DNA from: Desulfobacterales bacterium
GTDB lineage: Bacteria; Desulfobacterota; Desulfobacteria; Desulfobacterales; JARGFK01
Length of the DNA stretch: 37,478 nt
Direction: 5' to 3'
Assembly: GCA_029211065.1 (NCBI GenBank)
Contig: JARGFK010000040.1
Span: forward strand, 1-37,478
In this document: one piece after another, positions 8,635 through 21,545 of the stretch
How the letters are laid out: every line of letters starts with the position of its first letter
Numbering within the stretch: the stretch's first letter is position 1
Translations under genes and position numbers: made by a program
The notes under the pieces: model-generated
Told to the model about the DNA's origin: nothing
Seen by the model: the letters and a program-made list of their open reading frames with translations, nothing else
Database searches by the model: none

Positions 8635-10023
8635 TCAGATATTATCCAGGTCCGGTGTTAAATCAATCCCATACTTTTTCATACGGTTCCAAACCGTTAC
8701 ACGATTCACTCCCAGGATTCGGGCCGCCTGGGACTGATTGCCTTTGCTCCGGCGTAATGCCGTAACCAGAGCTTTTTTTTCAGCTTCGTCTTTTCGACCG
8801 GGCACAACAAACGACCCCGTTTTTTGCCCCGCGCCATTTCTGATCTGAAGGGGCAAATGTTCCGGCTTTACCAACCCCTTGGCAGAGACAACAAAGGCAT
8901 ATTCCAGCGCGCTTTTCAACTCCCTGACATTTCCGGGCCAATGATAGGCCATGAAAAGGCCCATCGCTTCCGCTGACAGTCCGGCAATACTCTTTTCGGT
9001 TCGGGTGTGCAGTTGCTGGATGAAGTGATTCACCAGCAGGGGAATATCTTCTCGTCGATCCCGCAGCGGAGGGATGTGGATCGGAATCACATTGATACGG
9101 AAAAAAAAGTCCTCTCTGAACTTTTTTTGCGCCATCAGTTCACCCAGGTCCTTATTTGTCGCCGTAATGATCCTGACATCCACTGAAATGGGCCGGTGGT
9201 CGCCCACCCGATCAAACTGCTTGGTTTCCAGAACCCGCAGCAGCTTCACCTGAATGGAAAGCGGCACATCGCCGATCTCATCTAAAAAGAAATCCCCGCC
9301 GTCGGCAGCCTCAAAACGCCCGAGACGATGGCGGTAAGCTCCGGTAAAGGCGCCTTTGATGTGGCCGAACAGCTCGCTTTCCAGCAGCGACTCATTTAAT
9401 GCGGTACAATTGAGTTGGACGAAAGGTCCTTTTTTTCTTCTGCCCAGATGATGAATGGCAAGCGCCACCAGTTCCTTGCCTGTACCGCTTTCACCATAAA
9501 TGATAACCGGCGCATCGCTTTGAGCGGCTTTGGGAATCACATCAAACACGTTCTGCATGGCCGCCGATTTGCCGACAAGGCCGTGAAACCCGCTGCCTTC
9601 ATCCATCTGCCGGGTAAGAAGATCGAGTTCCTGGTCCAACCGGTTTAATTCTGATATATCCGTGAGTGTTTCAACCGCCCCCAGATTCGCGTTATCGTCA
9701 TCTTTTAATAACGAAGCGTTTTTTATTATCTGCAGGTAGGTACCGTCCTTTTTCATTACCAGGCAGTTTTTGGTAATATCTTTTCCGCCGGCAAACAGGG
9801 TGCACCAGTGACCATTGCCTGCTTGCAACGTAATTTCACAGCCGTCACAATTGAGCATTTTACAGGACCTTCCCAGCACCTCTTCAGATGAATATCCGGT
9901 CAGGCACTCAAATGAGTGGTTTACCATCAGAATCGTTCCATCCGGGCTGATTACCAGCAAGCCTTCATTCATGGTGTTGATAATTTTTTTCCAGTAGCGG
10001 TTTGATTCAAGATCTTTCATCAT
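8635..10023 (-). CDS. Sigma-54-dependent transcriptional activator, PAS-AAA-Fis
   Basis: An enhancer-binding protein of 462 aa. An N-terminal PAS domain (about 12-125) senses the signal; it is cysteine-rich, with Cys40, 54, 59, 62, 74 and 87, which points to a redox, metal or FeS-type input. The AAA+ domain follows with Walker A GESGTGKE, the sigma-54-contacting GAFTGA loop, Walker B FFLDEIGD and an arginine-finger region. The C-terminal Fis-type HTH is NQSQAARILGVNRVTVWNRM. There is no receiver domain, so no partner kinase is required. AAGGA sits 2 bases before the first ATG and 5 before the second (10020), which may be the true start. It is divergent from the respiratory operon at 10236, with a sigma-54-like promoter and palindromes between, so it is the likely activator of that operon. 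Confidence 0.92.
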   Translation of the reverse strand: MMKDLESNRYWKKIINTMNEGLLVISPDGTILMVNHSFECLTGYSSEEVLGRSCKMLNCDGCEITLQAGNGHWCTLFAGGKDITKNCLVMKKDGTYLQIIKNASLLKDDDNANLGAVETLTDISELNRLDQELDLLTRQMDEGSGFHGLVGKSAAMQNVFDVIPKAAQSDAPVIIYGESGTGKELVALAIHHLGRRKKGPFVQLNCTALNESLLESELFGHIKGAFTGAYRHRLGRFEAADGGDFFLDEIGDVPLSIQVKLLRVLETKQFDRVGDHRPISVDVRIITATNKDLGELMAQKKFREDFFFRINVIPIHIPPLRDRREDIPLLVNHFIQQLHTRTEKSIAGLSAEAMGLFMAYHWPGNVRELKSALEYAFVVSAKGLVKPEHLPLQIRNGAGQKTGSFVVPGRKDEAEKKALVTALRRSKGNQSQAARILGVNRVTVWNRMKKYGIDLTPDLDNI

Positions 10024-10037
10024 TTTCCTTTATCATG

Positions 10038-10079
10038 TGTTTAAACATATTTAAGCAAGTGTTTAAATACCATTAAACA
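10038..10079. promoter_or_regulatory. Palindromic sites, candidate activator-binding sites
   Basis: TGTTTAAACA (10038-10047) is a perfect palindrome, and TGTTTAA (10060-10066) with TTAAACA (10073-10079) repeats the same half-sites with six bases between. They lie 15-56 bases upstream of the activator gene start and just upstream of the -24 box of the divergent promoter. The Fis-type HTH of the neighbouring activator is the obvious binder. Their closeness to the promoter (about -70 and -43) is shorter than usual for enhancer sites, so autorepression is also possible. Confidence 0.5.
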
Positions 10080-10102: not shown

Positions 10103-10235
10103 ATTTTTTTTAAATATTTTTAAATATATTGATATCAAAATGTTATGATGTTTATGGCTTAAGCTTTATTTAAGCGGCATATCAATTGCAAATCATATCG
10201 CACCAAACGTTCACTAAAAGTTTCCGGATATTTCG

Positions 10236-10463
10236 ATGGGTGCAACCGTAAGATTGGATCTTGTCAATTTAATTTCACCGCTGGGGCTGCTCAAATGTAA
10301 AAGCGCCCTGAACAAAATGAATAGCGGAGATCTGTTGGAGGTATCGCTGCAGGACCCCGAAGTTTTCAAAAATATTATAAAGATCATTGAACCGTCTCAT
10401 GACCAGGTGGTTCGAACCGACAGGGAAAACGGCTGCTTTCGCCTTTTTATCGAAAAAGGATGA
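10236..10463 (+). CDS. TusA/SirA-like small protein lacking the catalytic cysteine
   Basis: A 75-aa protein with the TusA fold pattern: LDLVNLISPLGLLKCKSAL corresponds to the family's LDxxGLxCPxPLLKxKxAL, followed by NKMNSGDLLEVSLQDPE and a C-terminal strand. TusA proteins pass sulfur from a Cys in the CPxP motif. Here that position is Ser14 (codon TCA) and the second Pro is Gly, so classical persulfide transfer is not possible from this site; Cys21 is the only cysteine nearby. It may be a structural or regulatory paralogue, or bind a partner without carrying sulfur. It is the first gene after the sigma-54 promoter, and no good ribosome-binding site precedes the ATG. It ends 87 bases before the chosen start of the ferredoxin subunit. 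Confidence 0.72.
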   Translation: MGATVRLDLVNLISPLGLLKCKSALNKMNSGDLLEVSLQDPEVFKNIIKIIEPSHDQVVRTDRENGCFRLFIEKG

Positions 10464-10550
10464 TGTTGTCGCATGACCCTACCGGTCCCATTTCCACAGA
10501 CGGATTCACGCTCAAAGGCAACCATTATCGTCAACAAACAGGAGTTTTCT

Positions 10551-11495
10551 ATGGAGATGAATAGAAGGCGCTTTCTAAAAATATCCGGGGCGCTGGCTGC
10601 GACACCGCTACTGAATCAGGCTCGCACCGCCCATGCTGAAAAAGTGCCGGCTTTATCCACAGAATCATATGGGTCTCTGGTGGACACAACCCTGTGCGTC
10701 GGCTGCCGCCAGTGCGAACAGGCCTGCAACCAACGCCACGGCTTGGCCAAACCGCATGAATCGTTTAGTGAAATGACGGTTCTGGAAAAAGAAAGGCGGA
10801 TGGATGAAACCACCTATACCGTGGTCAACAAGTATTACCCCAAAACCATCGGTTCCCTGACCTGGCGCACACGGCCCACCTTTGTCAAGTTGCAGTGCAT
10901 GCACTGCAACGACCCCTCCTGTGTCTCCGCCTGTATCGTGGGGGCCTTAACCAAAGAGTCCAACGGCGCGGTGATCTATAACGCCAAAAAATGCATCGGC
11001 TGTCGCTATTGCATGGTCGCCTGTCCCTTCCAGGTCCCGGCCTATGAGTATCACAACCCCCTGACTCCGCAGGTGCGAAAGTGTACATTCTGCTTTGAAA
11101 ACATTAAAGTCGGCGGGCTGCCGGCCTGCGCCCAAACCTGCCCGCGGGAAGTGATCACTTTCGGAAAAAAGGCGGATCTTTTATCTTTGGCCCGCTGGAA
11201 GATGAAGAACAACCCCGGCAAATATGTGGATCACATCTACGGCGAACATGAAGTCGGCGGCACTTCCTGGCTGTATCTGGCGTCCGAACCATTTGAGACC
11301 ATCGGATTTCCCAAGATCGGGACCAAAGCGCCGCCGCGGCTGACCGAGGCCATCCAGCATGGTCTCTTTCAATTCTTTGCAGCCCCGATCATCTTGTTCG
11401 GACTTCTGGGCGGCACGATGTGGTTTACCGGTTTTTACAAGAAAAACAACCGGCCCTCCAAGGATAATCCCCTTGCGAAAGGAGACGTGTCATGA
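10551..11495 (+). CDS. Tat-exported four-cluster ferredoxin subunit with C-terminal anchor (HybA/DsrO-like)
   Basis: The start at 10551 follows AGGAG and gives a twin-arginine signal peptide (NRRRFLKISGALAATPLL, cleavage near AHA). The mature part holds four ferredoxin-type cysteine groups: CVGCRQCEQAC, CMHCNDPSCVSAC, CIGCRYCMVAC and CTFCFENIKVGGLPACAQTC, expected to bind four [4Fe-4S] clusters in the periplasm. A hydrophobic C-terminal segment (LFQFFAAPIILFGLLGG) should anchor it to the membrane, as in HybA. The product (314 aa) would pass electrons between the NrfD/HybB-type membrane protein encoded next (four-base overlap) and periplasmic partners. The longer reading from 10473 would bury the Tat motif and is rejected. 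Confidence 0.9.
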   Translation: MEMNRRRFLKISGALAATPLLNQARTAHAEKVPALSTESYGSLVDTTLCVGCRQCEQACNQRHGLAKPHESFSEMTVLEKERRMDETTYTVVNKYYPKTIGSLTWRTRPTFVKLQCMHCNDPSCVSACIVGALTKESNGAVIYNAKKCIGCRYCMVACPFQVPAYEYHNPLTPQVRKCTFCFENIKVGGLPACAQTCPREVITFGKKADLLSLARWKMKNNPGKYVDHIYGEHEVGGTSWLYLASEPFETIGFPKIGTKAPPRLTEAIQHGLFQFFAAPIILFGLLGGTMWFTGFYKKNNRPSKDNPLAKGDVS

Positions 11496-14400
11496 ATGCT
11501 CATGAAATCGCAGCGCCGGTTGAAGAAAAATTTCTGACCCCCGGTGTCATGGTCATGCTGGGGTTCATCGCCATCGGGCTGGCCTTTACAGCCGCCCGTT
11601 TCATATTCGGCATCGGGGCTGTTTCCAACCTCAACAATCAATACCCCTGGGGAATCTGGATCGGTGTCGATGTCGCTTCCGGCGTCGCCCTGGCCGCCGG
11701 CGGTTTTACCACCGGCCTGATCGCCTATGTCTTTAACCGGGAACAGTACCATGCCGTTATCCGACCGGCCCTGCTGACCGCCATGTTGGGATATACCTTT
11801 GTGGTTCTGGGACTGCTCGTGGATATCGGCCGGTATTGGAACATTACCAGTCCTGTCTTCAACCACAACAGCAGTTCCGTTCTATTTGAAGTCGCCATGT
11901 GCGTCATGATCTATCTGCATGTTCTCTATATTGAATTTATCCCCATCGTGGTGGAACGTTTCAAGGGCCGGGTCAATCTTCCGGGTCCCTTTGCAAAGGC
12001 CAATGGGCCCATTGAAACACTGCTGGAAATTGCCGACCGGATCCTTGACAAGGTCATGTTCCTTTTTATTATTGCCGGTATCGTTCTTTCCTGTCTGCAT
12101 CAATCCGGCCTGGGCTCGCTTATGTTGATAGCGCCCTACAAGGTCCATCCCCTGTGGTACACGCCCATTCTGCCACTGCTGTTCCTGCTGTCCGCCTTTG
12201 CCGCCGGTTACCCCATGGTCACCTTTGAGTCCATCATCGTTGCCAAATCATTCGGCCGAAAACCGGAAATGGAGGTACTCACCCCGCTGGCCAGATTCAT
12301 GCCGCTGTTCATGGGGACCTACCTATCGTTTAAAATCGGAGATATGCTGGTGCGCGGCACCTATATCTATCTGCTGGACGGCACCTATCAGACCAATTCG
12401 TTTCTGGTTGAAGTCCTTGTGGGCGTTGTGCTTCCCTTTGTCTTGCTGATATTCAGAAAGGTCCGACAATCACCGGGCTGGCTGTTTTTCGCATCCATCG
12501 TCTTTGTTCTGGGGATTCTGCTGAACCGCATCAATGTTTTTGTGGTCAGCTTTACCCCGCCGTACAAGCTGGTCTCCTATTTCCCCTCCGTGGGCGAAAT
12601 GTTTATCACAGTGGGATTGATTGCCGGCCTGATGTTTCTGTACCGCGTGTGTGTATTTATTTTTCCGGTCCTGGGCGCCGTTCCCAAGAAAATTTCAACG
12701 GCAGCCCTGATCCTGATGGCCGCATCTATTCTTTTTGCGCCGGCGAACCCAGTCCAGGCGGCCGGCCCCCGCGCGACAGCTAAAACCCCGATAGCACCCA
12801 TAACCGAACCCACGCCGTCTATTGCCGACGCGCCCAAGCTGCAGATCCTCAACAGCCCCATCATCAGCCAATACAGCGATATCTACGAACCGGTCCGGTT
12901 TATGCACAGCAAGCATGCCAATGTTCTCCAGGACTGCTCCATCTGTCACCACCGCATTCCCCGGGAAAAAGGAGATAAATACGGTGAGCCGGTCAACCTG
13001 GCAAAACTGCGCGAAAAGGAAGCTATCCCGACGTCCTGCTCGGTCTGCCATGATCACCCGTTTAATCCCAAACAGCTGCATACCCCCGGCTTGAAAGGCG
13101 CCTATCATCAGCTCTGCATGGACTGCCATCAGGAGTCGGAACAGGTGCCCCATATCCGCGGACCCATTCTATACAGCGCCATGGTCCGGGGGCCGATTGC
13201 GCGAACGCTGGATACCCGAGCCCCCACAGACTGTCTGGCCTGTCACCCCAGGAAGGTTCCCGACCATAAAAACCTGGTAAAGCTGGAAGCGGGCGTCGAC
13301 CCCATCACGGTGACGAAAAACTGCCTCTCCTGTCACGAAAATGAAGGCAAGGCCATCCTCAAGACCGCCCACTGGAACTGGCAGGGACCGTCGCCCTATA
13401 CCGTCGGGCATGAAAAACGGGTTGATCTCGGCAAGCGGCACAACACCGTCAACAATTTCTGTATCAATCTCAACGGCAACTGGCCGCGCTGCACCAGCTG
13501 CCATATCGGCTACGGCTGGGAAGATGAAAAATTTGACTTTAATGATATGACACGAATCGATTGTCTGGTCTGCCACGACACCACCGGAACATACCAGAAG
13601 GCGCCGGCGGCAGCGGGCTTCCCCGCCAAAGGCGTCGACCTGGTCGCAGTTGCCCGCAATGTGGGCCGCCCCAGCCGGGATACCTGCGGTACCAATTGCC
13701 ATTTCCAGGGCGGCGGCGGCGATGCGGTCAAGCATGGCGACCTGAATTCCACCCTGGCCAAGCCCACCCGATCTCTTGACGTTCATATGGGCACGGACAA
13801 AGGCGGTCTGGATTTCAAATGCCAGACCTGTCATAAAACCCGCAACCACATGATCTCCGGGCGCAGCATTTCGGTTGCCGCATCAGAGGGCGACCTGTCC
13901 TGTGAATACTGTCATACCGATAAACCCCATATCGAAAGCCAGATGGTCGATAACCATTTGAATAAGCATACGGCCCACGTTGCCTGCCAGACCTGCCATA
14001 TCCCTATGTATTCCAAGGGAACGCCCACCAAGGTCCACTGGGACTGGTCCACCGCCGGCCAGGATATTGATCAGCCCAAAGACCCCTATGGCAAACCGGT
14101 CTATGCAAAAATGAAGGGAAGCTTCCGCTGGAAGCAGGCAGCCAAGCCTTCCTATTACTGGTACAACGGAACGGTCAAACGCTATCTGCTGGGCGACCGC
14201 ATCAATGAATCCGGTGTTACCGAGCTGACCAAACCCATGGGAAGTGCTGCAGACAGCGCCTCCCGGATATACCCGTTTAAAGAGCACACCGGACGCCAGA
14301 TCAGCGACTCGGTCTATAAATACCTCATCGCACCCAAGCTCTGGAAAGGTTACTGGAAAGACTGGGACTGGGATAAGGCCGCCAGGGAAGGGATGCAGTC

Positions 14401-14752
14401 AGCCAATCTGGCCTATAGCGGCAAATATGAATTTGTGGACACGGTGATGTACTGGGGCCTGACCCACGAGGTGATGCCCAAAGAGCAGGCCCTTTCCTGC
14501 GCCCAGTGCCACCCCTCCCTTGCCAAGGCACCCTACTGCGGCAGCTGCCATCAGGAAAGAAACGGCGTCGACTTTAAGGCCCTGGCAAACAAAGGAATCG
14601 ATTTTAAAACCCTGCCGGTCAAAAGTGCGGAAATTGCCGCCCAGATCGGAAAAAGCAATTACATAGATTTTAAATCTCTGGGGTATCCCGGCGACCCGGT
14701 TGAAACCGGCGGCAGGTTTAAAAAGCTGACCCTGGGAAAAGCGCATCCGTAA
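11492..14752 (+). CDS. NrfD/HybB-type quinone-interacting membrane protein fused to a 13-haem, octahaem-tetrathionate-reductase-like cytochrome c
   Basis: A 1086-aa fusion. Residues about 15-395 are a polytopic NrfD/PsrC/HybB-like membrane domain (N-terminal GIGAVSNLNNQYPWGIWIG and GLLVDIGRYWNI are typical), which exchanges electrons with menaquinone. Residues about 399-424 (KKISTAALILMAAS to NPVQA) look like a complete signal peptide now used as the last membrane segment. Residues 482-1020 are periplasmic and carry twelve CxxCH motifs plus one CGTNCH (Cys732). The first few haems resemble a class III cytochrome module. The rest, with NCHFQGGGGDAVKHGDL, resembles the octahaem tetrathionate reductase (OTR) family. 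It overlaps the ferredoxin gene by four bases. It probably links the quinone pool to the molybdoenzyme and may itself reduce or oxidise a sulfur or nitrogen compound. Confidence 0.9.
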   Translation: MNAHEIAAPVEEKFLTPGVMVMLGFIAIGLAFTAARFIFGIGAVSNLNNQYPWGIWIGVDVASGVALAAGGFTTGLIAYVFNREQYHAVIRPALLTAMLGYTFVVLGLLVDIGRYWNITSPVFNHNSSSVLFEVAMCVMIYLHVLYIEFIPIVVERFKGRVNLPGPFAKANGPIETLLEIADRILDKVMFLFIIAGIVLSCLHQSGLGSLMLIAPYKVHPLWYTPILPLLFLLSAFAAGYPMVTFESIIVAKSFGRKPEMEVLTPLARFMPLFMGTYLSFKIGDMLVRGTYIYLLDGTYQTNSFLVEVLVGVVLPFVLLIFRKVRQSPGWLFFASIVFVLGILLNRINVFVVSFTPPYKLVSYFPSVGEMFITVGLIAGLMFLYRVCVFIFPVLGAVPKKISTAALILMAASILFAPANPVQAAGPRATAKTPIAPITEPTPSIADAPKLQILNSPIISQYSDIYEPVRFMHSKHANVLQDCSICHHRIPREKGDKYGEPVNLAKLREKEAIPTSCSVCHDHPFNPKQLHTPGLKGAYHQLCMDCHQESEQVPHIRGPILYSAMVRGPIARTLDTRAPTDCLACHPRKVPDHKNLVKLEAGVDPITVTKNCLSCHENEGKAILKTAHWNWQGPSPYTVGHEKRVDLGKRHNTVNNFCINLNGNWPRCTSCHIGYGWEDEKFDFNDMTRIDCLVCHDTTGTYQKAPAAAGFPAKGVDLVAVARNVGRPSRDTCGTNCHFQGGGGDAVKHGDLNSTLAKPTRSLDVHMGTDKGGLDFKCQTCHKTRNHMISGRSISVAASEGDLSCEYCHTDKPHIESQMVDNHLNKHTAHVACQTCHIPMYSKGTPTKVHWDWSTAGQDIDQPKDPYGKPVYAKMKGSFRWKQAAKPSYYWYNGTVKRYLLGDRINESGVTELTKPMGSAADSASRIYPFKEHTGRQISDSVYKYLIAPKLWKGYWKDWDWDKAAREGMQSANLAYSGKYEFVDTVMYWGLTHEVMPKEQALSCAQCHPSLAKAPYCGSCHQERNGVDFKALANKGIDFKTLPVKSAEIAAQIGKSNYIDFKSLGYPGDPVETGGRFKKLTLGKAHP

Positions 14753-14852
14753 GCGCCTGCTGATACCAGCTACAGACAGTCAGGTTTAATGCGATCATTA
14801 AAAAACGTAGGCTTTAAAACATTATATACGACAATCTAAGGAGGTAAACACG

Positions 14853-15182
14853 ATGATTCGACGATTGGGTTCCGCTTTAATTCTTTTGGTCTTTTTAATC
14901 GGCGCGGTCGGGCTTGCCCTGGCCGCCGGCGACGGCAATGCCCGCAAGGGAAAATACCTTTTTCGTAAAAACTGCCGGACCTGCCACATCGACGGCGGAT
15001 CCGCCAAGCCCCTCAGTCCCATCGACAAGACCCAGGCAAAGTGGGACGAGGTATTTAAAAACATTGAAAAGCTGCCCTGCAAGGACAAGTGGAGCGCCCT
15101 GTCGGAAAAGGATATTCAGGATATGTATGCGCAGCTCTGGGGTCATGCCTTTGACTCTCCCTCACCGGAAAAATGCGAGTAA
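14853..15182 (+). CDS. Monohaem cytochrome c, periplasmic
   Basis: A 109-aa protein with an N-terminal signal peptide (LILLVFLIGAVGLALA) and one haem-binding motif, CRTCH, placed early in the mature chain (KGKYLFRKNCRTCHIDGG), as in class I cytochromes. The distal ligand cannot be assigned with certainty; no Met follows in the usual place apart from DMYAQLW near the C-terminus. Two further cysteines (LPCKD and the C-terminal KCE) could form a disulfide. A strong ribosome-binding site, AAGGAGG, precedes the ATG. It lies between the octahaem fusion and the molybdoenzyme and is the natural soluble electron shuttle between them. Confidence 0.88.
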   Translation: MIRRLGSALILLVFLIGAVGLALAAGDGNARKGKYLFRKNCRTCHIDGGSAKPLSPIDKTQAKWDEVFKNIEKLPCKDKWSALSEKDIQDMYAQLWGHAFDSPSPEKCE

Positions 15183-15197
15183 TTTGGAGTATTGAAA

Positions 15198-17396
15198 ATG
15201 CCAGTAAAAACCAAAGGTGCGCTAACCCGTCGCAGGTTCATGCAGCTTACCGGCGCGGCTGCTGCCGGGGCGGCTGTCGGCGGCCAATCCCGGATCTTGC
15301 ATGCGCTGGTATCCAAAACAGCAGGAGATTCCAAAGCGCGCATTGAAAGGAAATTCTCCATCTGCGACATGTGCTTAAACAAGTGCGGTCTGATTGCCCG
15401 GGTGGACCCATACGGTGTGGTCAAAAAACTGGACCCCAATCCGAAGTTCTTAAAATCCCGGGGCATGCTGTGTGCCCGGGGCAATGCCGGCATCCAGCAG
15501 CTCTATGACCCCGACCGGCTGAAATATCCCCTCCTCAGAAAAGGAGAAAGGGGCCAGGGCCGTTGGCAGCGACTCACATGGGACCAGGCCCTGGACCATG
15601 CCGCTGAACAGCTGGGGCGCATCGCCGAAAAGTACACCCGCTGCGGCGTTCTGTTTATGGCCGGATCCGACCTTCAATCCACATTTGTCCACCGCTTTGC
15701 CAATGTCTTTGGATCGTACAATGTCGTATCGCATGAATCCAACTGCCTCTTGAGCCTCAACCGGGCATTTCTGGACACATATGGCGAAATCCCGATTCCC
15801 GACATGCTCAACTGCAAATATGTCATCATGGCCGGCGCCAACCGCTTCGAGGCTTTGGTTACACCGGACAGCATCGATCTGATGACGGCCATGCAGAACG
15901 GCTGCAAGCTGGTGGTCCTTGATCCCCGCTTTACCAAAACAGCGGCCCTGGCGAGCGAATGGTTCCCGATCCGGCCGGGGACCGACATGGCCTTTTTCCT
16001 GGCCATTGCACATGTATTGATCACTGAAAAACTGTACGATCCCAAGTTCATTGCCGAAAAAACATTCGGTATCGAACAGCTCAGCGCCCATGTCAAACCC
16101 TACCCGCCGGAATGGGCTGAAAAAGAATGCGAAATCCCGGCCGGCGATATTCGCCGCATGGCACGGGACCTGGCTGCAGCCGCGCCTGCGGCCATGGTCT
16201 ATCCGGGACGCAGAAGCTCCGACTACGAAAACTCCACTCAGATCCGCCGATCCTTTGCCATTGTCAATGCGCTCCTGGGAAACTGGGATCGCCCCGGCGG
16301 CCTGACGGCGGCCAGAAAAATCGGCATCAAATCCGTGCCCTATGATCCGCCCTTTTATGAGGACAACCCCGAAAAAAGGATCGATGCCGACCGGTCCGTG
16401 ATGATGTTCGAGGAGGAGGGCTCTTTTAAGCACGCCCGGGATGCCGTCATTGAAGGAAAGCCTTATCCGGTCAAAGGTTTTTTCACCTATAAGATCAACC
16501 CCATGCAAACCGGCGCCAACCGCAGCAAAACCATCGAAATGATCCACACGCTCGATTTCATGATGACCGTGGATATCGCCATGAGCGACACCGCCTGGAT
16601 GGCGGATCTGGTCTTGCCGGCCCCCAGCTATCTCGAAAGAGAGGACCCGGTGTCTGCGCTGCAGGGTTCTTCGGCCTGCGCCTGTATGGTCATGCGCGAT
16701 CCGGTGGTTCCGGCGCTGTTTGAATCCAGACCGGTTTTCTGGATTGTCACCGAGCTTTCCAAGCGCCTGGGCTTGGGTGAGCACTTCAACTACACCCTGG
16801 CGGACTACCGCAAAAAACAGCTGGAAGAGCTGCCCGATGCCATGGATGCCCTGCTGAAAGACGGCGTTTATTACAATCCCGGCAAGCTCTATGGCGTCTA
16901 TGAAGGCAAGGTTTTTAAAACCCTTTCAAAAAAAATTGAAATTTACAACCAGCGTTATGCTGACGCCGGCATCGATCCACTGCCGGTATACCAACCCCCC
17001 CAGCAGGTTCCTGAAGGAAAGTTTCGCATCGTGGTGGGACGCAACGCTTATATCACCCAGGGCTCTTCCACCAATAATGAACTGCTGCACGAACTGCTGC
17101 CTGAAAACGCCCTGTGGATACACCCCAAACCGGCCGGCCGGCTGGGAATCAAGCAGGGCGATTCCGTCGCGGTTACCAGCCCGGTAGGCAAAGGCATCCT
17201 CAAGGCTCATGTCACCCAGGAAACCCGCCCCGATACGGTTTATATGGATTCCGGGTACGGCGCCCTGTCAAAGGGCCTGACCCATGTTTTCGGCCGGGGA
17301 GCTTGCATTGCAGACATCCTTGAAGACTATAACGATAAGATTTCAGGGAATATGGCCATGCATCAAACCATGGTCACGGTCAGAAAGATAAAATAG
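15198..17396 (+). CDS. Molybdopterin oxidoreductase catalytic subunit, PsrA/PhsA-like
   Basis: A 732-aa bis-MGD enzyme exported by Tat (TRRRFMQLTGAAAAGAAVGG). CDMCLNKC plus the later MLCARGN gives the four cysteines of the N-terminal [4Fe-4S] cluster. SHESNCLLS places a Cys at the Mo-ligand position, as in polysulfide/thiosulfate reductase (PsrA/PhsA) and not Ser (DMSO reductase) or Asp (NarG). The C-terminal domain shows the MGD-binding pattern, with GRNAYITQGSSTNNELL. The start at 15198 (ATG) follows GGAG with eight bases between; the TTG at 15192 is rejected. Likely substrates are polysulfide, thiosulfate or tetrathionate, but related enzymes also handle arsenate or arsenite, so the substrate is open. 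The chaperone is probably the TorD-like protein at 19804. Confidence 0.9.
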   Translation: MPVKTKGALTRRRFMQLTGAAAAGAAVGGQSRILHALVSKTAGDSKARIERKFSICDMCLNKCGLIARVDPYGVVKKLDPNPKFLKSRGMLCARGNAGIQQLYDPDRLKYPLLRKGERGQGRWQRLTWDQALDHAAEQLGRIAEKYTRCGVLFMAGSDLQSTFVHRFANVFGSYNVVSHESNCLLSLNRAFLDTYGEIPIPDMLNCKYVIMAGANRFEALVTPDSIDLMTAMQNGCKLVVLDPRFTKTAALASEWFPIRPGTDMAFFLAIAHVLITEKLYDPKFIAEKTFGIEQLSAHVKPYPPEWAEKECEIPAGDIRRMARDLAAAAPAAMVYPGRRSSDYENSTQIRRSFAIVNALLGNWDRPGGLTAARKIGIKSVPYDPPFYEDNPEKRIDADRSVMMFEEEGSFKHARDAVIEGKPYPVKGFFTYKINPMQTGANRSKTIEMIHTLDFMMTVDIAMSDTAWMADLVLPAPSYLEREDPVSALQGSSACACMVMRDPVVPALFESRPVFWIVTELSKRLGLGEHFNYTLADYRKKQLEELPDAMDALLKDGVYYNPGKLYGVYEGKVFKTLSKKIEIYNQRYADAGIDPLPVYQPPQQVPEGKFRIVVGRNAYITQGSSTNNELLHELLPENALWIHPKPAGRLGIKQGDSVAVTSPVGKGILKAHVTQETRPDTVYMDSGYGALSKGLTHVFGRGACIADILEDYNDKISGNMAMHQTMVTVRKIK

Positions 17397-17409
17397 AAGG
17401 AAGTTGCCC

Positions 17410-18045
17410 ATGAGCCAGGACCGATCGAAACGATATGCCATTGTGATTGACACCTTTAAATGTTTTGACTGCAAGGCCTGCATGATTGCCTGCAAGGTTG
17501 AAAACAACGTTCCCAAAGGTTTCTGGCGAAACTGGGTCCGGCATACCGGCGGAATCGGCGGCCGCAGAACCCAGTACCAGCCCGGCCAGTGCATGCAGTG
17601 CGACAAACCGTCCTGTGTATCGGCCTGCCCGGTGAACGCCACTTACAAGCAGTCTAACGGCATCGTGGCCATCGATCCGACCAAATGCATCGGCTGCGGC
17701 AATTGCGTCACAGCCTGCCCCTACGGCGCCCGCTATCGCAACCCTGCCAGCCGCTTCGCCGATAAATGTGATTTTTGTCAGCACCGCTTAAGCCGTGGAG
17801 AAGAACCGGCCTGCGTCGAGACCTGTCCCACCCGGGCCCGCACTTTCGGAGATCTGAATGATCCCACAAGCACAATCAGCGAACTGGTCAAGCATAAAAA
17901 ACTGGTACAGGTGATCAACCCCAAAATAGATACCCAACCGGGAATCTTATATTTTTCAGGGACGCTGCCCCTGGACTGGCCGGTGGAACCGACCCTGCCT
18001 GGCGGTATCCATATGCCGGAAAAATTCTGGAAAACGTCGGAATGA
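17410..18045 (+). CDS. [4Fe-4S] electron-transfer subunit, PsrB/DmsB-like
   Basis: A 211-aa protein with four ferredoxin cysteine groups (CFDCKACMIAC, CMQCDKPSCVSAC, CIGCGNCVTAC and CDFCQHRLSRGEEPACVETC), the standard arrangement in PsrB, DmsB and NrfC. It has no signal peptide, so it should be exported by riding on the Tat signal of the molybdoenzyme encoded 13 bases upstream. The start at 17410 (ATGAGC) follows AAGGAAG; the TTG at 17404 is less likely. The C-terminus (LDWPVEPTLPGGIHMPEKFW) is typical of this subunit. It receives or donates electrons at the molybdoenzyme and should contact the NrfD domain or the cytochromes. Confidence 0.92.
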   Translation: MSQDRSKRYAIVIDTFKCFDCKACMIACKVENNVPKGFWRNWVRHTGGIGGRRTQYQPGQCMQCDKPSCVSACPVNATYKQSNGIVAIDPTKCIGCGNCVTACPYGARYRNPASRFADKCDFCQHRLSRGEEPACVETCPTRARTFGDLNDPTSTISELVKHKKLVQVINPKIDTQPGILYFSGTLPLDWPVEPTLPGGIHMPEKFWKTSE

Positions 18046-18129
18046 TTTACGTTCGAAAAGGGTCCGGCTGAAATGACCCGATTCTGATAATTGGTCAATC
18101 ATTATTTTAACAACAAAAGGAGGTAACGT

Positions 18130-19272
18130 ATGATGAGTAACAGCAGAATGAACTGGCTTCCCCTGCTCATAGTGATCGTCTTGGCTATGGGACTTGGGAA
18201 CGCCGCCATTGCCGCTGCTTCCGCGGAAGCCGGCAGTGTACAGACCGAAGCATGGATGTTCCATGACATTGTGACGGTTGAATTTGTGCAGCCGTATGTG
18301 AAAGTGCCCCCGCCTGAAAACGCCCTGCTCATTGATTCCAGGCCGAAACGGGCAAAATATGACAAGGGACACATCCCCATGGCAATCAATATTCCCGACA
18401 GTCAGTTTGAAAAAATGACCGACAAGCTGCCCCAGGATAAAGACACCCTTTTGATTTTCTATTGTGAAGGGATGAAGTGAAAGCTGAGCCACAACTCAGC
18501 CTGGAAGGCTGAAAAGCTCGGATACAAAAACGTCAAAGTCTTTGCCGAAGGATTCCCCAAATGGGAGAAAGTTCAAGGCAACTATCCGGCGATATCTACG
18601 GATTACATGAAAAAACTGATCGACACCAAGGCCGATATGGTCTTGGTGGACTCACGACCCAAACGTTCAATGTACGACAAGGGCCATATTCCCACTGCCA
18701 TCAGCATCCCTGACAGCGAGTTCGACAAGTTAAAAGACCAGCTGCCTCAGGACAAGGAAAAACAGCTGATTTTTTACTGTGAAGGGTTTAAATGCAAATT
18801 GAGCCATAATTCCGCCGCCAAGGCCATTGGGCTCGGCTACAAGAACGTAGCCGTCTATGCGGCCGGTTACCCTGCCTGGAAAACGCTTGATGCCGATTCT
18901 GCTGAAGAAGCAAAAAAAATGGCCGCTTCGATCAAACCCGGCAAGGAGGAAGGGAGTATCGATGTGGCCGTGTTTGAAACTATCATCGAAGAAAAACCGG
19001 AAAGCATCATTCTGATCGATGTCCGCGACCCGGATGAGTTTAAAGCCGGCAGTTTCGAGACCGCCATTAACGTCCCCACCGACAAACTGGAAGAAAAGAT
19101 CAAAACCCTGTCGGAAGAAAAGCCGGTCGTCTTCATCTGTTCAACCGGCGCCAGAAGCGGCGAGGCCTATTATATGGTCAAAGACCTGCGTCCGAAATTC
19201 AAGGATGTATATTATCTGGAAGCAGAGTTGACTTTCAACAAAGACGGCTCACATAAAATAACCAAAAAATAA
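18130..19272 (+). CDS. Exported three-domain rhodanese with in-frame TGA read as selenocysteine (Sec117)
   Basis: Read through the TGA at 18478-18480 this gene encodes 380 aa: a signal peptide (about 1-30), two closely related rhodanese domains and a third, more divergent one. Domain 1 reads YCEGMK-TGA-KLSHNSA; domain 2 reads YCEGFKCKLSHNSA, so the TGA aligns exactly with Cys222. The sequence after the TGA stays homologous to domain 2 (LGYKNVKVFAEGFPKWE against LGYKNVAVYAAGYPAWK), which rules out a normal stop. Active-site cysteines are Cys112, Cys217 and Cys337 (FICSTGARSG). The SD is AGGAGG. The TGA is followed at 18486-18519 by a SECIS-like hairpin. Rhodaneses move sulfane sulfur; this one should work in the periplasm with the molybdoenzyme system. 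If the TGA were a stop, only a 116-aa truncated first domain would be made. Confidence 0.85.
18478..18480 (+). other. Putative selenocysteine codon (TGA) in rhodanese domain 1
   Basis: This in-frame TGA follows GGG-ATG-AAG and precedes AAG-CTG-AGC. In the second domain of the same protein the matching codon is TGC (18793-18795). The neighbouring rhodanese gene has TGA at the same alignment position. Recoding as Sec is inferred from these alignments and the following hairpin. Confidence 0.82.
18486..18519 (+). promoter_or_regulatory. Bacterial SECIS-like hairpin downstream of the TGA at 18478
   Basis: The upper stem TCAGCC (18496-18501) pairs fully with GGCTGA (18507-18512) around the loop TGGAA, whose second base is G, as bacterial SECIS elements require. 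A lower stem GAGC (18486-18489) with GCTC (18516-18519) adds four pairs. The loop begins 21 bases after the TGA, within the usual window. A competing hairpin, GCTGAG (18483-18488) with CTCAGC (18495-18500), is also possible. Confidence 0.6.
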
Positions 19273-19286
19273 CCGTAAAACATATC

Positions 19287-19327
19287 CCTGGCTCCGGCAC
19301 ATAAATCAACATGCCGCCGGAGCCAGG
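19287..19327 (+). other. Intercistronic 12-bp hairpin between the two rhodanese genes
   Basis: CCTGGCTCCGGC (19287-19298) and GCCGGAGCCAGG (19316-19327) are perfectly complementary around a 17-base loop. No T-run follows, so it is not a classical intrinsic terminator. It may stabilise the upstream mRNA or reduce transcription into the second rhodanese gene. Confidence 0.55.
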
Positions 19328-19347
19328 CACTTGGCATTGTCGACACG

Positions 19348-19821
19348 ATGAAACTTTTGCAGACTCTGAAAGGCTTTTTTGTCCTGATCATCCTTTGCGG
19401 ATATGTTCCCGGCGCCGGGGCCGCTGAAAATTCCGTATGGTGGGAAAGGGCCGAAATTGTCGCCCGGCAGGAAGGCTATCATCTCGTTACGCTACAACAG
19501 CTCCAGGCGCTCTATGGCACACAACAAAATTTCCTGATTGTCGATGTCCGGCCGGACTACGAATTTAAGGAAGGCCATCTACCCCGGGCCATCCAGATCG
19601 AATTCAGTCCCGCTGACCGGTACAATCTGAAACCCGACAAGCGAGACCGTTTTGAAAGCGTCCTCGGTTCGGATAAAAACCGCAGGATTATTATTTACTG
19701 CCTGAACTACAACTGAGCCCGGAGCGAAATTGCCGTCTACTGGGCCGTGCGCCTGGGTTATAAAGATGTCAGCAGGTTTGTCGCCGGTTACCAGGGGTGG
19801 ATCTCAGTTCCGCTCCCATAG
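19348..19821 (+). CDS. Exported single-domain rhodanese with in-frame TGA read as selenocysteine (Sec123)
   Basis: Read through the TGA at 19714-19716 the product has 157 aa and ends at TAG 19819-19821. It has a signal peptide (LKGFFVLIILCGYVPGAGA) and one rhodanese domain: LIVDVRPDYEFKEGHLPRA, then IIYCLNYN-TGA-ARSEIAVYWA and LGYKDVSRFVAGYQGW, the typical C-terminal end of the fold. Active-site Cys118 and Sec123 are five residues apart, the same spacing as Cys112/Sec117 and Cys217/Cys222 in the upstream protein. Stopping at the TGA would delete the last helix and strand that every rhodanese needs. A hairpin with GT in its loop follows at 19740-19756. The final 18 bases overlap the end of the convergent torD-like gene. 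No strong ribosome-binding site is seen. Confidence 0.8.
19714..19716 (+). other. Putative selenocysteine codon (TGA) in the single-domain rhodanese
   Basis: The in-frame TGA follows AAC-TAC-AAC and precedes GCC-CGG-AGC. It stands at the Cys+5 position that is Cys or TGA in the neighbouring rhodanese domains. The frame continues with rhodanese sequence for 34 more codons before TAG. Confidence 0.78.
19740..19756 (+). promoter_or_regulatory. Bacterial SECIS-like hairpin downstream of the TGA at 19714
   Basis: CTGGGC (19740-19745) pairs with GCCTGG (19751-19756) through four Watson-Crick and two G-T pairs around the loop CGTGC, which has G at position two followed by T as in well-studied bacterial SECIS loops. 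The loop begins 29 bases after the TGA, inside the usual range. The stem is weaker than that of the upstream gene. Confidence 0.42.
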
Positions 19822-20472
19822 CTTCCCGCTTCCAAAACCGGCAACCCAATCTAATATCAAGACCAGCAGACGGGATGCCAGCGGATAGAAACGGCAGGCG
19901 GTTTCCTGCTGCAGCCGCCCGGCAAATACAGAAACCCACGGCAGCATCGTCCCGGCGGCAAAAGATCCGGCTTCATATAAAACGGACCCCTTTGGGCGGC
20001 TCCCGCTTTTGTCCAGCAGAAAATAAAGATATTCCATCTCAATGCAAAGATGGTCCGGCGGTTCGGTTATTGTTTCCGCAAGGGTTAAACCGCTGGATTC
20101 AAACCTATTTTTCATTTTAACGGCTGAAGCACCCATCAGGGGTGCGTTTTCGTATTCATAGCAGGACTGATAAAGCGGTGCCTGAATGCCTCCCTTGGCG
20201 TTGATAAAGAGCCGGACGAACGTTTCTGCCAGCTGGCGGCAAAGCAGATCGGCATCACCGAAATCTTCTGGAAAGGCCTTTATCTTCTGCAGGGGATCGG
20301 CGAACTCACCGGTCATAGCCGGTTTAAGATTTTCAAACGGAAGGAAAAAGGAGCCCGCTTTCATTGCCGCGCAATCGTCGGGATCCGGCCCCCAGAATAT
20401 TCGGCATATCGTCTTGATGGCGGACAGAAGGTCCTCTTGATGACGCCGGGATAATGCGGATGCTGTTTTCAT
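19804..20472 (-). CDS. TorD/DmsD-family molybdoenzyme chaperone
   Basis: A 222-aa all-helical cytoplasmic protein of the TorD/NarJ type. The pattern EMEYLYFLL in the middle and LPWVSVFAGRLQQETACRFYPLA towards the C-terminus matches the family's E-x-x-Y...FL and hPWhxxFxxxl...YxxhA signatures. Such chaperones bind the Tat signal of a bis-MGD enzyme and help cofactor insertion before export; the obvious client is the PsrA/PhsA-like protein at 15198, whose operon converges on this gene from the opposite strand. The two 3' ends overlap by 18 bases if the second rhodanese reads through its TGA. Its promoter would lie in the 128-base gap shared with the divergent FmdE-like gene. Confidence 0.82.
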   Translation of the reverse strand: MKTASALSRRHQEDLLSAIKTICRIFWGPDPDDCAAMKAGSFFLPFENLKPAMTGEFADPLQKIKAFPEDFGDADLLCRQLAETFVRLFINAKGGIQAPLYQSCYEYENAPLMGASAVKMKNRFESSGLTLAETITEPPDHLCIEMEYLYFLLDKSGSRPKGSVLYEAGSFAAGTMLPWVSVFAGRLQQETACRFYPLASRLLVLILDWVAGFGSGKLWERN

Positions 20473-20600: not shown

Positions 20601-21182
20601 ATGGATGTTGATACACCTTCTTTTACTATCTGCGGCCGCTCACCGCAAGAATTTTTAGATGCCATCGAAAACTTCCACGGATGGAAAGCCCCCGGCATCG
20701 TCCTGGGCGGGTTTATGGTTGACTGGGCCCGGGAACTTTTCGGACCGGACGTTGAAGCCGACGCCATCGTGGAAACCACCCACTGCCTGCCGGATGCCGT
20801 CCAGCTGTTTACGCCGTGCACCTTCGGCAACGGCTGGCTGAAGGTTCTGGATTGGGACAAGTTTGCCTTAAGCCTGTACGACCGATACAGCCTGAGCGGG
20901 TACCGGGTCTGGCTGGATCTTGAGAAAACCCGCGCGGTAACCGACCTTTACGACTGGTATATGCGCCGGAAACCCAAAAAAGACCTGCCCCTGGATGTAT
21001 TGCTCAACGCTATTTTCACGGCACGACGATCCATTTTATCATCACGGACTATCCGAATGAAACAACTTTACCAACGTAAGAAGAAGGGACAAATTGAGAT
21101 CTGCTCCGGATGCGGGGAAGCATACCCCGCCGCCCAGGGCCCCCGATGCACGGCCTGTCAGGGTGAAGGATACTTTGAATAA
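20601..21182 (+). CDS. FmdE-like protein with C-terminal zinc ribbon
   Basis: A 193-aa protein. The N-terminal part reads FHGWKAPGIVLGGFMVDWA, which aligns with the FHGHxCPGLxxGxRxA signature of FmdE (a protein found in molybdenum formylmethanofuran dehydrogenase operons and near other molybdoenzymes), but the usual second His and the Cys are replaced by Trp and Ala. TPCTFGNGWLKVLDWDKFAL corresponds to the family's second signature. The C-terminus carries CSGCGEAYPAAQGPRCTAC, a four-cysteine zinc ribbon. FmdE biochemistry is not settled, though a metal-binding or molybdenum-cofactor-related role is often supposed. It is next to the TorD-like gene, consistent with a link to the molybdoenzyme operon. 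Confidence 0.75.
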   Translation: MDVDTPSFTICGRSPQEFLDAIENFHGWKAPGIVLGGFMVDWARELFGPDVEADAIVETTHCLPDAVQLFTPCTFGNGWLKVLDWDKFALSLYDRYSLSGYRVWLDLEKTRAVTDLYDWYMRRKPKKDLPLDVLLNAIFTARRSILSSRTIRMKQLYQRKKKGQIEICSGCGEAYPAAQGPRCTACQGEGYFE

Positions 21183-21230: not shown

Positions 21231-21545
21231 ATGTATCTGCCGAAGATATATGAAAATTTTTCAACAAATTTTCCGGAAGTTTTCAAAGACTACAAGCAGC
21301 TGGGCATCTCCTGTCGGGATGCCGGCCCCCTGGACCCCAAAACGCAGAATCTTATCAAACTTGGGATTTCCATCGGCGCAAATTCCAGAGGCGCCATCAT
21401 GTCTCACACCCGAAAAGCGCTGTCATCCGGGGCTACCGCTGAAGAAATTATCCACAGCGTTCTGCTGGCGCTGACCACCACCGGTTTTCCGAACATGATT
21501 GCCGCCATGGGATATGTGAATGAGGTTCTAAAAGAAGACCCCTGA
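21231..21545 (+). CDS. AhpD-like (carboxymuconolactone decarboxylase family) protein without CxxC
   Basis: A 104-aa helical protein: LDPKTQNLIKLGISIGANSRGAIMSH followed by TRKALSSGATAEEIIHSVLLALTTTGFPNM matches the CMD/AhpD fold. In the redox-active members two cysteines (CxxC) precede the conserved His of the second helix. Here that segment is RGAIMSH, so no disulfide chemistry is expected, and the protein resembles the many uncharacterised CMD-like proteins. A very strong ribosome-binding site, AAGGAGGGG, precedes the ATG. It follows the FmdE-like gene by 48 bases and may share its transcript. Confidence 0.8.
   Translation: MYLPKIYENFSTNFPEVFKDYKQLGISCRDAGPLDPKTQNLIKLGISIGANSRGAIMSHTRKALSSGATAEEIIHSVLLALTTTGFPNMIAAMGYVNEVLKEDP

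Follow-up and report, generated by a model that had tools for sequence, protein, structure and literature searches.

Reduction of polysulfide or thiosulfate by menaquinol is uphill, since thiosulfate lies near -400 mV and menaquinone near -70 mV. The Phs enzyme of Salmonella uses the proton-motive force (pmf), and in Wolinella the Sud protein hands polysulfide sulfur to Psr. The Psr operon of Desulfurivibrio dismutans (RS06465-06490) encodes an exported triple-rhodanese protein and is strongly upregulated in elemental sulfur (S0) disproportionation, its Psr being assigned to S0 reduction by the authors (PMC12142623). A module of ferredoxin, HybB-like protein and octahaem cytochrome has been reported as an orphan, with no conserved flanking genes (PMC10924467). 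Here we describe an operon of a Desulfobacterales bacterium that combines a PsrA/PhsA-like molybdoenzyme, an NrfD-type membrane protein fused to a multihaem cytochrome, and exported selenocysteine (Sec) rhodaneses. It lies on contig JARGFK010000040.1 of assembly GCA_029211065.1, positions 1 to 37,478 of which were analysed and are called the window (37,478 nucleotides). The genes named in the original prediction, a plus-strand run at 10236-20472 from a TusA-like protein to the rhodaneses with a TorD gene converging on it, were all found there, each on the strand that had been stated.

We read this operon as encoding a pmf-linked, quinone-coupled periplasmic reductase of sulfane sulfur (polysulfide/S0 or thiosulfate) that could also run in reverse, and on the sequence evidence we put the probability of this reading at roughly 0.55. 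The best explanation of its make-up is that the usual Psr/Phs membrane anchor was exchanged for a proton-coupled quinone module of the Hmc/Qrc type, fused to a multihaem wire. The original prediction had proposed quinone-linked reduction or oxidation of polysulfide, thiosulfate or tetrathionate; periplasmic, quinone-linked sulfur redox stands as the best reading, with no positive evidence for tetrathionate.

The molybdoenzyme contains domains PF00384, PF01568 and PF04879, an N-terminal Fe4S4 motif and a twin-arginine translocation (Tat) signal (RRRFMQLTG). Its closest match in the PDB is PsrA of T. thermophilus (2vpw; E=9e-122, 411 bits), followed by acetylene hydratase at 209 bits, and its best profile is PhsA (NF012032), with a score of 535.9 bits that stays under the equivalog cut-off of 694. 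C183, R94 and R338 align with C173, R81 and R332 of the Thermus enzyme, which we take to be active-site residues that matter, as we do H145, whose place is held by glycine. Models of ArrA, TtrA and the selenate reductases YnfE/F score far below PhsA, and these scores together with the tree rule out that the enzyme is a TtrA, an ArrA, or a selenate or dimethyl sulfoxide reductase. Phylogenetically, the window enzyme groups with 25 relatives in one clade (99/100) that excludes T. thermophilus PsrA and the plasmid-borne PhsA of E. coli. The original prediction had allowed for placement with enzymes of a different substrate; the enzyme falls instead in this supported clade of its own, in the PsrA/PhsA area and not with TtrA, ArrA or any other foreign-substrate clade.

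Within the clade, enzymes accompanied by the fusion module form a single group (99/98), outside which fall the enzymes whose operons have a cytochrome b. These sister operons, whose enzyme is 61-68% identical, encode a PF01292 cytochrome b, which Pfam confirmed in two of them; in the rest it was assigned from gene position and hydrophobicity or was not in view. They share with the window operon the small cytochrome, TorD and the triple rhodanese, and most also have the single one. As the fusion-bearing clade, with the outgroups used, lies inside the cytochrome-b ones, the module stands where PhsC stood. With these outgroups it looks as if the cytochrome-b form is older and the fusion module a later exchange, an order to be read with caution because the tree is rooted at its midpoint and some outgroups are long-branched. 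Both types are present in three Desulfarculaceae-like genomes (G092, G209 and G232); in G209, which appears identical to the genome of the cultured carrier Desulfocarbo indianensis (L035), they are L177 and L178.

In the scan of genomes, Desulfobacterales, Desulfarculaceae and a SAR324 metagenome-assembled genome (MAG), over all of which the gene order is preserved, carry the fusion, and a Myxococcales MAG has one that is more distant; carriers of the operon include uncultured and cultured Desulfobacterota, among them an Olavius-associated bacterium. Besides the window's, 24 distinct fusions span the whole query with 13 haem motifs each, which rules out a sequencing artefact or a chance fusion; L050 is divergent and shorter. 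Among the other loci, 19 extend 5 kb or more downstream, and in 16 of these the molybdoenzyme and its iron-sulfur (FeS) subunit come next after the fusion. The genes thus keep together in other genomes, whereas a lack of such conservation would have refuted the original prediction. Ferredoxin and fusion occur with no molybdoenzyme nearby in L034, L037 and L038, the first of which has a second OTR gene (18605-19906). A TorD orthologue occupies the equivalent place in most loci. The triple rhodanese is encoded in 11 of the 17 fusion-plus-enzyme operons, the window's included, and in a sample of 297 genomes it co-occurs with the enzyme clade in six of eight (hypergeometric 6e-9, kinship uncorrected), a count that becomes 8/8 when relatives detected by tblastn are added. 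A third arrangement, without molybdoenzyme (L114, L115, L120 and L187), joins a stand-alone OTR and a triple rhodanese to a small cytochrome-b-like protein, a CytC-like protein without haem motif and a similar sigma54 activator, indicating a link between OTR and the triple rhodanese that is independent of PsrA.

The fusion is composed of an NrfD half (residues 1-400), a tetrahaem part (451-590), an OTR octahaem domain (604-1010) and an extra C-terminal haem motif, with 12 CXXCH motifs and one CX3CH. Its NrfD half has ten transmembrane segments and is of the HmcC/HybB/QrcD kind. When aligned with the genome's own QrcD-like protein, eight of nine proposed QrcD proton-path positions match (D60, Y80, Y101, Y141, E148, E155, H203 and E369, corresponding to QrcD D70, Y88, Y110, Y150, E157, E164, H199 and E413), N100 of the list being Arg, and D111 and E133 correspond to QrcD D120 and E142; the residues, listed in PMC6303296, were placed by motif and spacing on that protein and not on the D. 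vulgaris sequence. The operon is not Hmc itself, as its proteins score 339/420 bits for HmcB and 281/550 for HmcC, the partners HmcA, D, E and F are absent from it, and a true hmc operon, as well as a qrc operon, lies elsewhere in the genome. The same genome also holds a paralogous module (L102; G000:C42, 8381-20000) of ferredoxin, separate NrfD, separate 13-haem tetrahaem-OTR cytochrome, cytochrome-b-like protein, 8-haem protein and TorD, with another molybdoenzyme and FeS subunit upstream.

An NrfD half of this kind raises the question of direction. The same complex could be oxidative, its PsrA-like enzyme oxidising sulfide, polysulfide or thiosulfate while the NrfD half reduces menaquinone electrogenically like Qrc. 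Quinone reduction is considered the preferred activity of relatives in the 10-TM HmcC/HybB/QrcD group (PMC6303296), which would suit such a direction, the proton-path residues are kept, and Desulfarculaceae genomes with both operon types would suit a division into one operon per direction. However, the genome has dsrA and lives, as far as can be told, by the reduction of sulfur compounds; menaquinone suits the oxidation of thiosulfate poorly; and the sole expression evidence, from a possible relative, concerns disproportionation with Psr assigned to S0 reduction (PMC12142623). We consider oxidation as the main function unlikely, if deserving of serious attention; reverse, pmf-driven use of such modules has itself been noted (PMC6303296).

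The OTR domain of the fusion is a full member of its family: it reaches 530 bits with TIGR04315 (cut-off 375), has eight haem motifs, and aligns with 1sp3 at E=1e-136, K747 and C657 being the equivalents of the haem ligand Lys153 and of Cys64. Such conservation could mean that the terminal enzyme is to be sought in the OTR half, acting on tetrathionate, nitrite or hydroxylamine, all of which Shewanella OTR reduces in vitro according to work cited in PMC4911364, and that the molybdoenzyme works separately from it as a second subunit; stand-alone OTR operons with cytochrome b and triple rhodanese do exist. This is improbable, as L123 and L124, nested in the fusion group, have lost OTR and kept the NrfD-tetrahaem part (judged from one complete locus, L173) together with everything else seen there, so that OTR appears dispensable to the molybdoenzyme, and the cytochrome-b sister operons are also without it. 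Moreover, the triple rhodaneses that travel with OTR point to sulfur and not nitrogen compounds. The NrfD-tetrahaem fusion of L173 (11918-13627) is 623 residues long, in an otherwise similar operon.

Two exported Sec rhodaneses had been predicted, and two such genes are present, although the first is longer than proposed. Separate open reading frames at 18130-18480 and 18607-19272 were rejected, because one frame runs through the intervening UGA and homologues have Cys there; with this codon read as Sec, the result is a single exported protein with three rhodanese domains. Its predicted model has three rhodanese folds (mean predicted local distance difference test score, pLDDT, of 77), with C112-x4-U117 in domain 1, C217-x4-C222 in domain 2 and C337 in domain 3. 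Both rhodaneses keep the catalytic Cys and place Sec five residues further on (FYC-EGMK-U in the triple, IYC-LNYN-U in the single). By hand tally, homologues have Sec in 12 and Cys in 6 cases at the domain-1 position, and Sec in 8 and Cys in 9 at that of domain 2. The 54 bases from the UGA of the triple rhodanese fold with z = -3.6 (0/200 shuffles as good), compared with z = -0.9 at the Cys site of domain 2 and a weaker fold, z = -2.2, at the UGA of the single-domain gene. Covariation in the hairpin over 19 sites is 0.149 versus 0.089 in shuffles, with 0/500 as high and slid versions at or below 0.057. The genome has selA, selB and tRNA-Sec, all above cut-offs. An in-frame UGA at the homologues' Cys, a hairpin resembling a selenocysteine insertion sequence (SECIS) and the machinery genes are thus all found, as in bacterial selenoproteins, and they support the coding of Sec. 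The protein is no TsoB (NF045694; 129 vs 805 bits), and a plasmid search returned no full-length relative of the triple rhodanese. At L036, a second, divergent triple-rhodanese gene (18015-19019) immediately follows the first. That the substrate might be a selenium, tellurium or arsenic oxyanion, with Sec rhodaneses marking selenium handling, as had been suggested for selenium oxyanions and arsenicals, is highly improbable: Psr-like enzymes are diverse and a rhodanese gene occurs in the ext cluster of Geobacter, the porin of which has an effect on the reduction of selenite/tellurite (PMC5877670), but no positive evidence was found, the profile scores of the molybdoenzyme speak for PhsA over ArrA, TtrA and selenate YnfE/F, and Cys in place of Sec in close homologues is what one would expect if the residue serves in redox chemistry and not in carrying a selenium substrate.

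The operon is of the sigma54 type by its sequence, with a divergent activator and a conserved promoter (Table 1). The best hit in the intergenic region between operon and activator is a sigma54-type site in 14/14 loci (equalled by 0-5 of 300 shuffles per locus), and the octamer TGTTTAAA or its complement lies upstream of it in 8 of these 14. An orthologue of the activator is present in most complete loci; the five cysteines of its PAS domain are kept in 11/11 aligned proteins (CxxLxCxxC ... WCxLF ... C), making a FeS or thiol/persulfide sensor possible. The first gene of the run encodes a TusA-like protein as predicted, but a degenerate one: the catalytic Cys of the CPxP motif is absent in 13/13 aligned sequences (window and 12 orthologues), which makes a function as sulfur carrier improbable and weakens the case for a TusA sulfur relay. 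An Rfam search at the gathering threshold gave no match. Beyond TorD lie two small proteins identified by eye, one FmdE-like (20601-21182), with relatives near a rhodanese in L173, and one AhpD/carboxymuconolactone-decarboxylase-like (21231-21545), with a 73% relative beside the paralogous module of L102.

Table 1 Features of the operon in the window, and positions of the third-arrangement operons in their own loci.
Feature	Coordinates	Strand	Evidence
Sigma54-dependent activator, PAS + AAA + Fis helix-turn-helix, Cys-rich PAS; divergent	8635..10023	-	Pfam PF00158, PF13426, PF02954
TGTTTAAA repeats, putative activator binding sites	10038..10067 (starts 10038, 10060)	.	recurrence in other loci; function inferred
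Sigma54 -24/-12 promoter CGGCATATCAATTGCA, GG-N10-GC	10175..10190	+	sequence and conservation in 14/14 loci
TusA-like small protein without CPxP cysteine	10236..10463	+	PF01206, 44.6 bits
Tat-exported tail-anchored 4Fe-4S protein, HmcB/HybA-like	10551..11495	+	NCBIfam HmcB, 339 bits; Tat signal PF10518; C-terminal hydrophobic stretch
NrfD-tetrahaem-OTR fusion, 1086 aa, 13 haem motifs	11492..14752	+	PF03916; TIGR04315 above cut-off
Small monohaem cytochrome c, exported	14853..15182	+	PF13442; CRTCH
PsrA/PhsA-like molybdenum bis-pyranopterin guanine dinucleotide (Mo-bisPGD) catalytic subunit, Tat signal, Mo ligand Cys183	15198..17396	+	profiles, PDB match, tree, active-site residues
PsrB/PhsB-like 4Fe-4S electron-transfer subunit	17410..18045	+	PF13247 and others
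Exported triple-rhodanese selenoprotein, 380 aa	18130..19272	+	three PF00581 stretches; model; Sec/Cys swaps in homologues
UGA read as selenocysteine U117 of triple rhodanese	18478..18480	+	Sec/Cys swaps; selA, selB, tRNA-Sec in genome
SECIS-like stem-loop 3' of triple-rhodanese UGA	18484..18521	+	folding vs shuffles; covariation
Exported single-domain Sec-rhodanese, CLNYNU (CX4U), UGA 19714-19716	19348..19821	+	PF00581, 60.7 bits; local fold z = -2.2
TorD-type chaperone, convergent	19804..20472	-	PF02613, 71.7 bits
Third-arrangement operons	L114 7959-12020; L115 8228-12101; L120 7587-11773; L187 6789-10785

From the parts, export signals, Sec coding, conservation, anchor exchange and promoter described above, we infer the following for substrate, electron order, direction and the role of Sec. 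The exported rhodaneses would load sulfane sulfur from polysulfide/S0 or thiosulfate onto their loop Cys, a role resembling that of Sud. The CX4U loop hints that more than transfer takes place: an attack on the persulfide by Sec at the end of the loop could set sulfide free and produce a selenenylsulfide, or else Sec could speed delivery to the PsrA-like enzyme, which with its FeS subunit would reduce that sulfur, or split thiosulfate, in the periplasm. Electrons may pass from menaquinol through the NrfD/HmcB pair to the haems of the tetrahaem part and of OTR, and from there by way of the small cytochrome c to the PsrB-like subunit. For uphill reduction by menaquinol, a module in which the oxidation of quinol is coupled to the membrane potential would be suitable, and by the QrcD-type proton path of the NrfD half the pmf might drive electrons to low-potential acceptors, reversed flow conserving energy. 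The Cys-rich PAS sigma54 activator would turn the operon on. A bolder version, which we hold only as a doubtful proposal, is a distinct respiratory complex in which Mo-pterin and OTR haem centres share one proton-coupled quinone module and are fed by rhodaneses, the CX4U loop being itself a redox-active sulfane-sulfur reductase, with Sec cutting the persulfide and cytochromes re-reducing the selenenylsulfide.

Several points count against a sulfane-sulfur reductase of this design, in addition to the quinone-reducing preference of the relatives of its NrfD half. The substrate cannot be read from sequences of the Psr/Phs type. For the fusion, the AlphaFold model has a pLDDT of 38 and yields no electron path. 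The D. dismutans precedent rests on the published description and is absent from our tree, and the triple rhodanese, missing from 6 of 17 operons, is an accessory.

The locus bears on the ways in which S0, polysulfide and thiosulfate are dealt with by sulfate reducers beyond their inner membrane, and on the onset of disproportionation. Conserved operons link OTR cytochromes and the orphan ferredoxin/NrfD/octahaem module to a Psr/Phs-type enzyme and rhodaneses, which makes a role in sulfur metabolism testable. The two-centre complex, if real, would give sulfate reducers a biochemically new way to respire or disproportionate S0/polysulfide.

The original prediction did not recognise the combination as a described complex. 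Its parts were known before, and both the triple-rhodanese Psr operon (PMC12142623) and the orphan module (PMC10924467) precede it; in the literature searched, mostly without subscription papers, we found no account of their union, of the fusion and its association with PsrA, or of a three-domain rhodanese with a CX4U loop. As described, the MOLY cluster of sulfur disproportionators (PMC12998232) likewise pairs PsrA/B-type subunits with TorD in Desulfobacterota, but without a membrane anchor. The Sec-rhodaneses TsoB, NF041203 and the rhodanese-like forms 1-5 (PMC13188914) share rhodanese fold and selenocysteine, whereas the window protein has three domains, no DsbD, a CX4U loop and its catalytic Cys. 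Compared with OTR of known structure (1sp3), the fusion's domain has the same eight haem motifs and the Lys ligand and Cys64 equivalents, but is joined to a membrane protein and has a ninth haem motif and CX3CH at one site. The HmcB/HmcC-type pair, multihaem partner and QrcD proton-path residues recall Hmc and Qrc, without HmcA, D, E and F. The module of PMC10924467 has the same three functions in the same order, as separate genes, whereas here NrfD, tetrahaem part and OTR are one polypeptide with conserved PsrA, PsrB and rhodanese neighbours. In the D. dismutans operon, likened by description only, psr genes also stand alongside an exported three-rhodanese protein, and the paper names no fusion, OTR or selenocysteine there (PMC12142623). 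Finally, the Tat-exported Mo-bisPGD subunit with Cys ligand, the 4Fe-4S partner, TorD and the quinone link are those of PsrABC and PhsABC, and a PhsC-like cytochrome b is found in the sister operons; the window operon, in contrast, has no PsrC or PhsC, its only NrfD being the HmcC-type one of the fusion. Its catalytic subunit forms a clade of its own below the PhsA cut-off, and the sole exit for electrons is through the tail-anchored ferredoxin, the fusion and the small cytochrome c.

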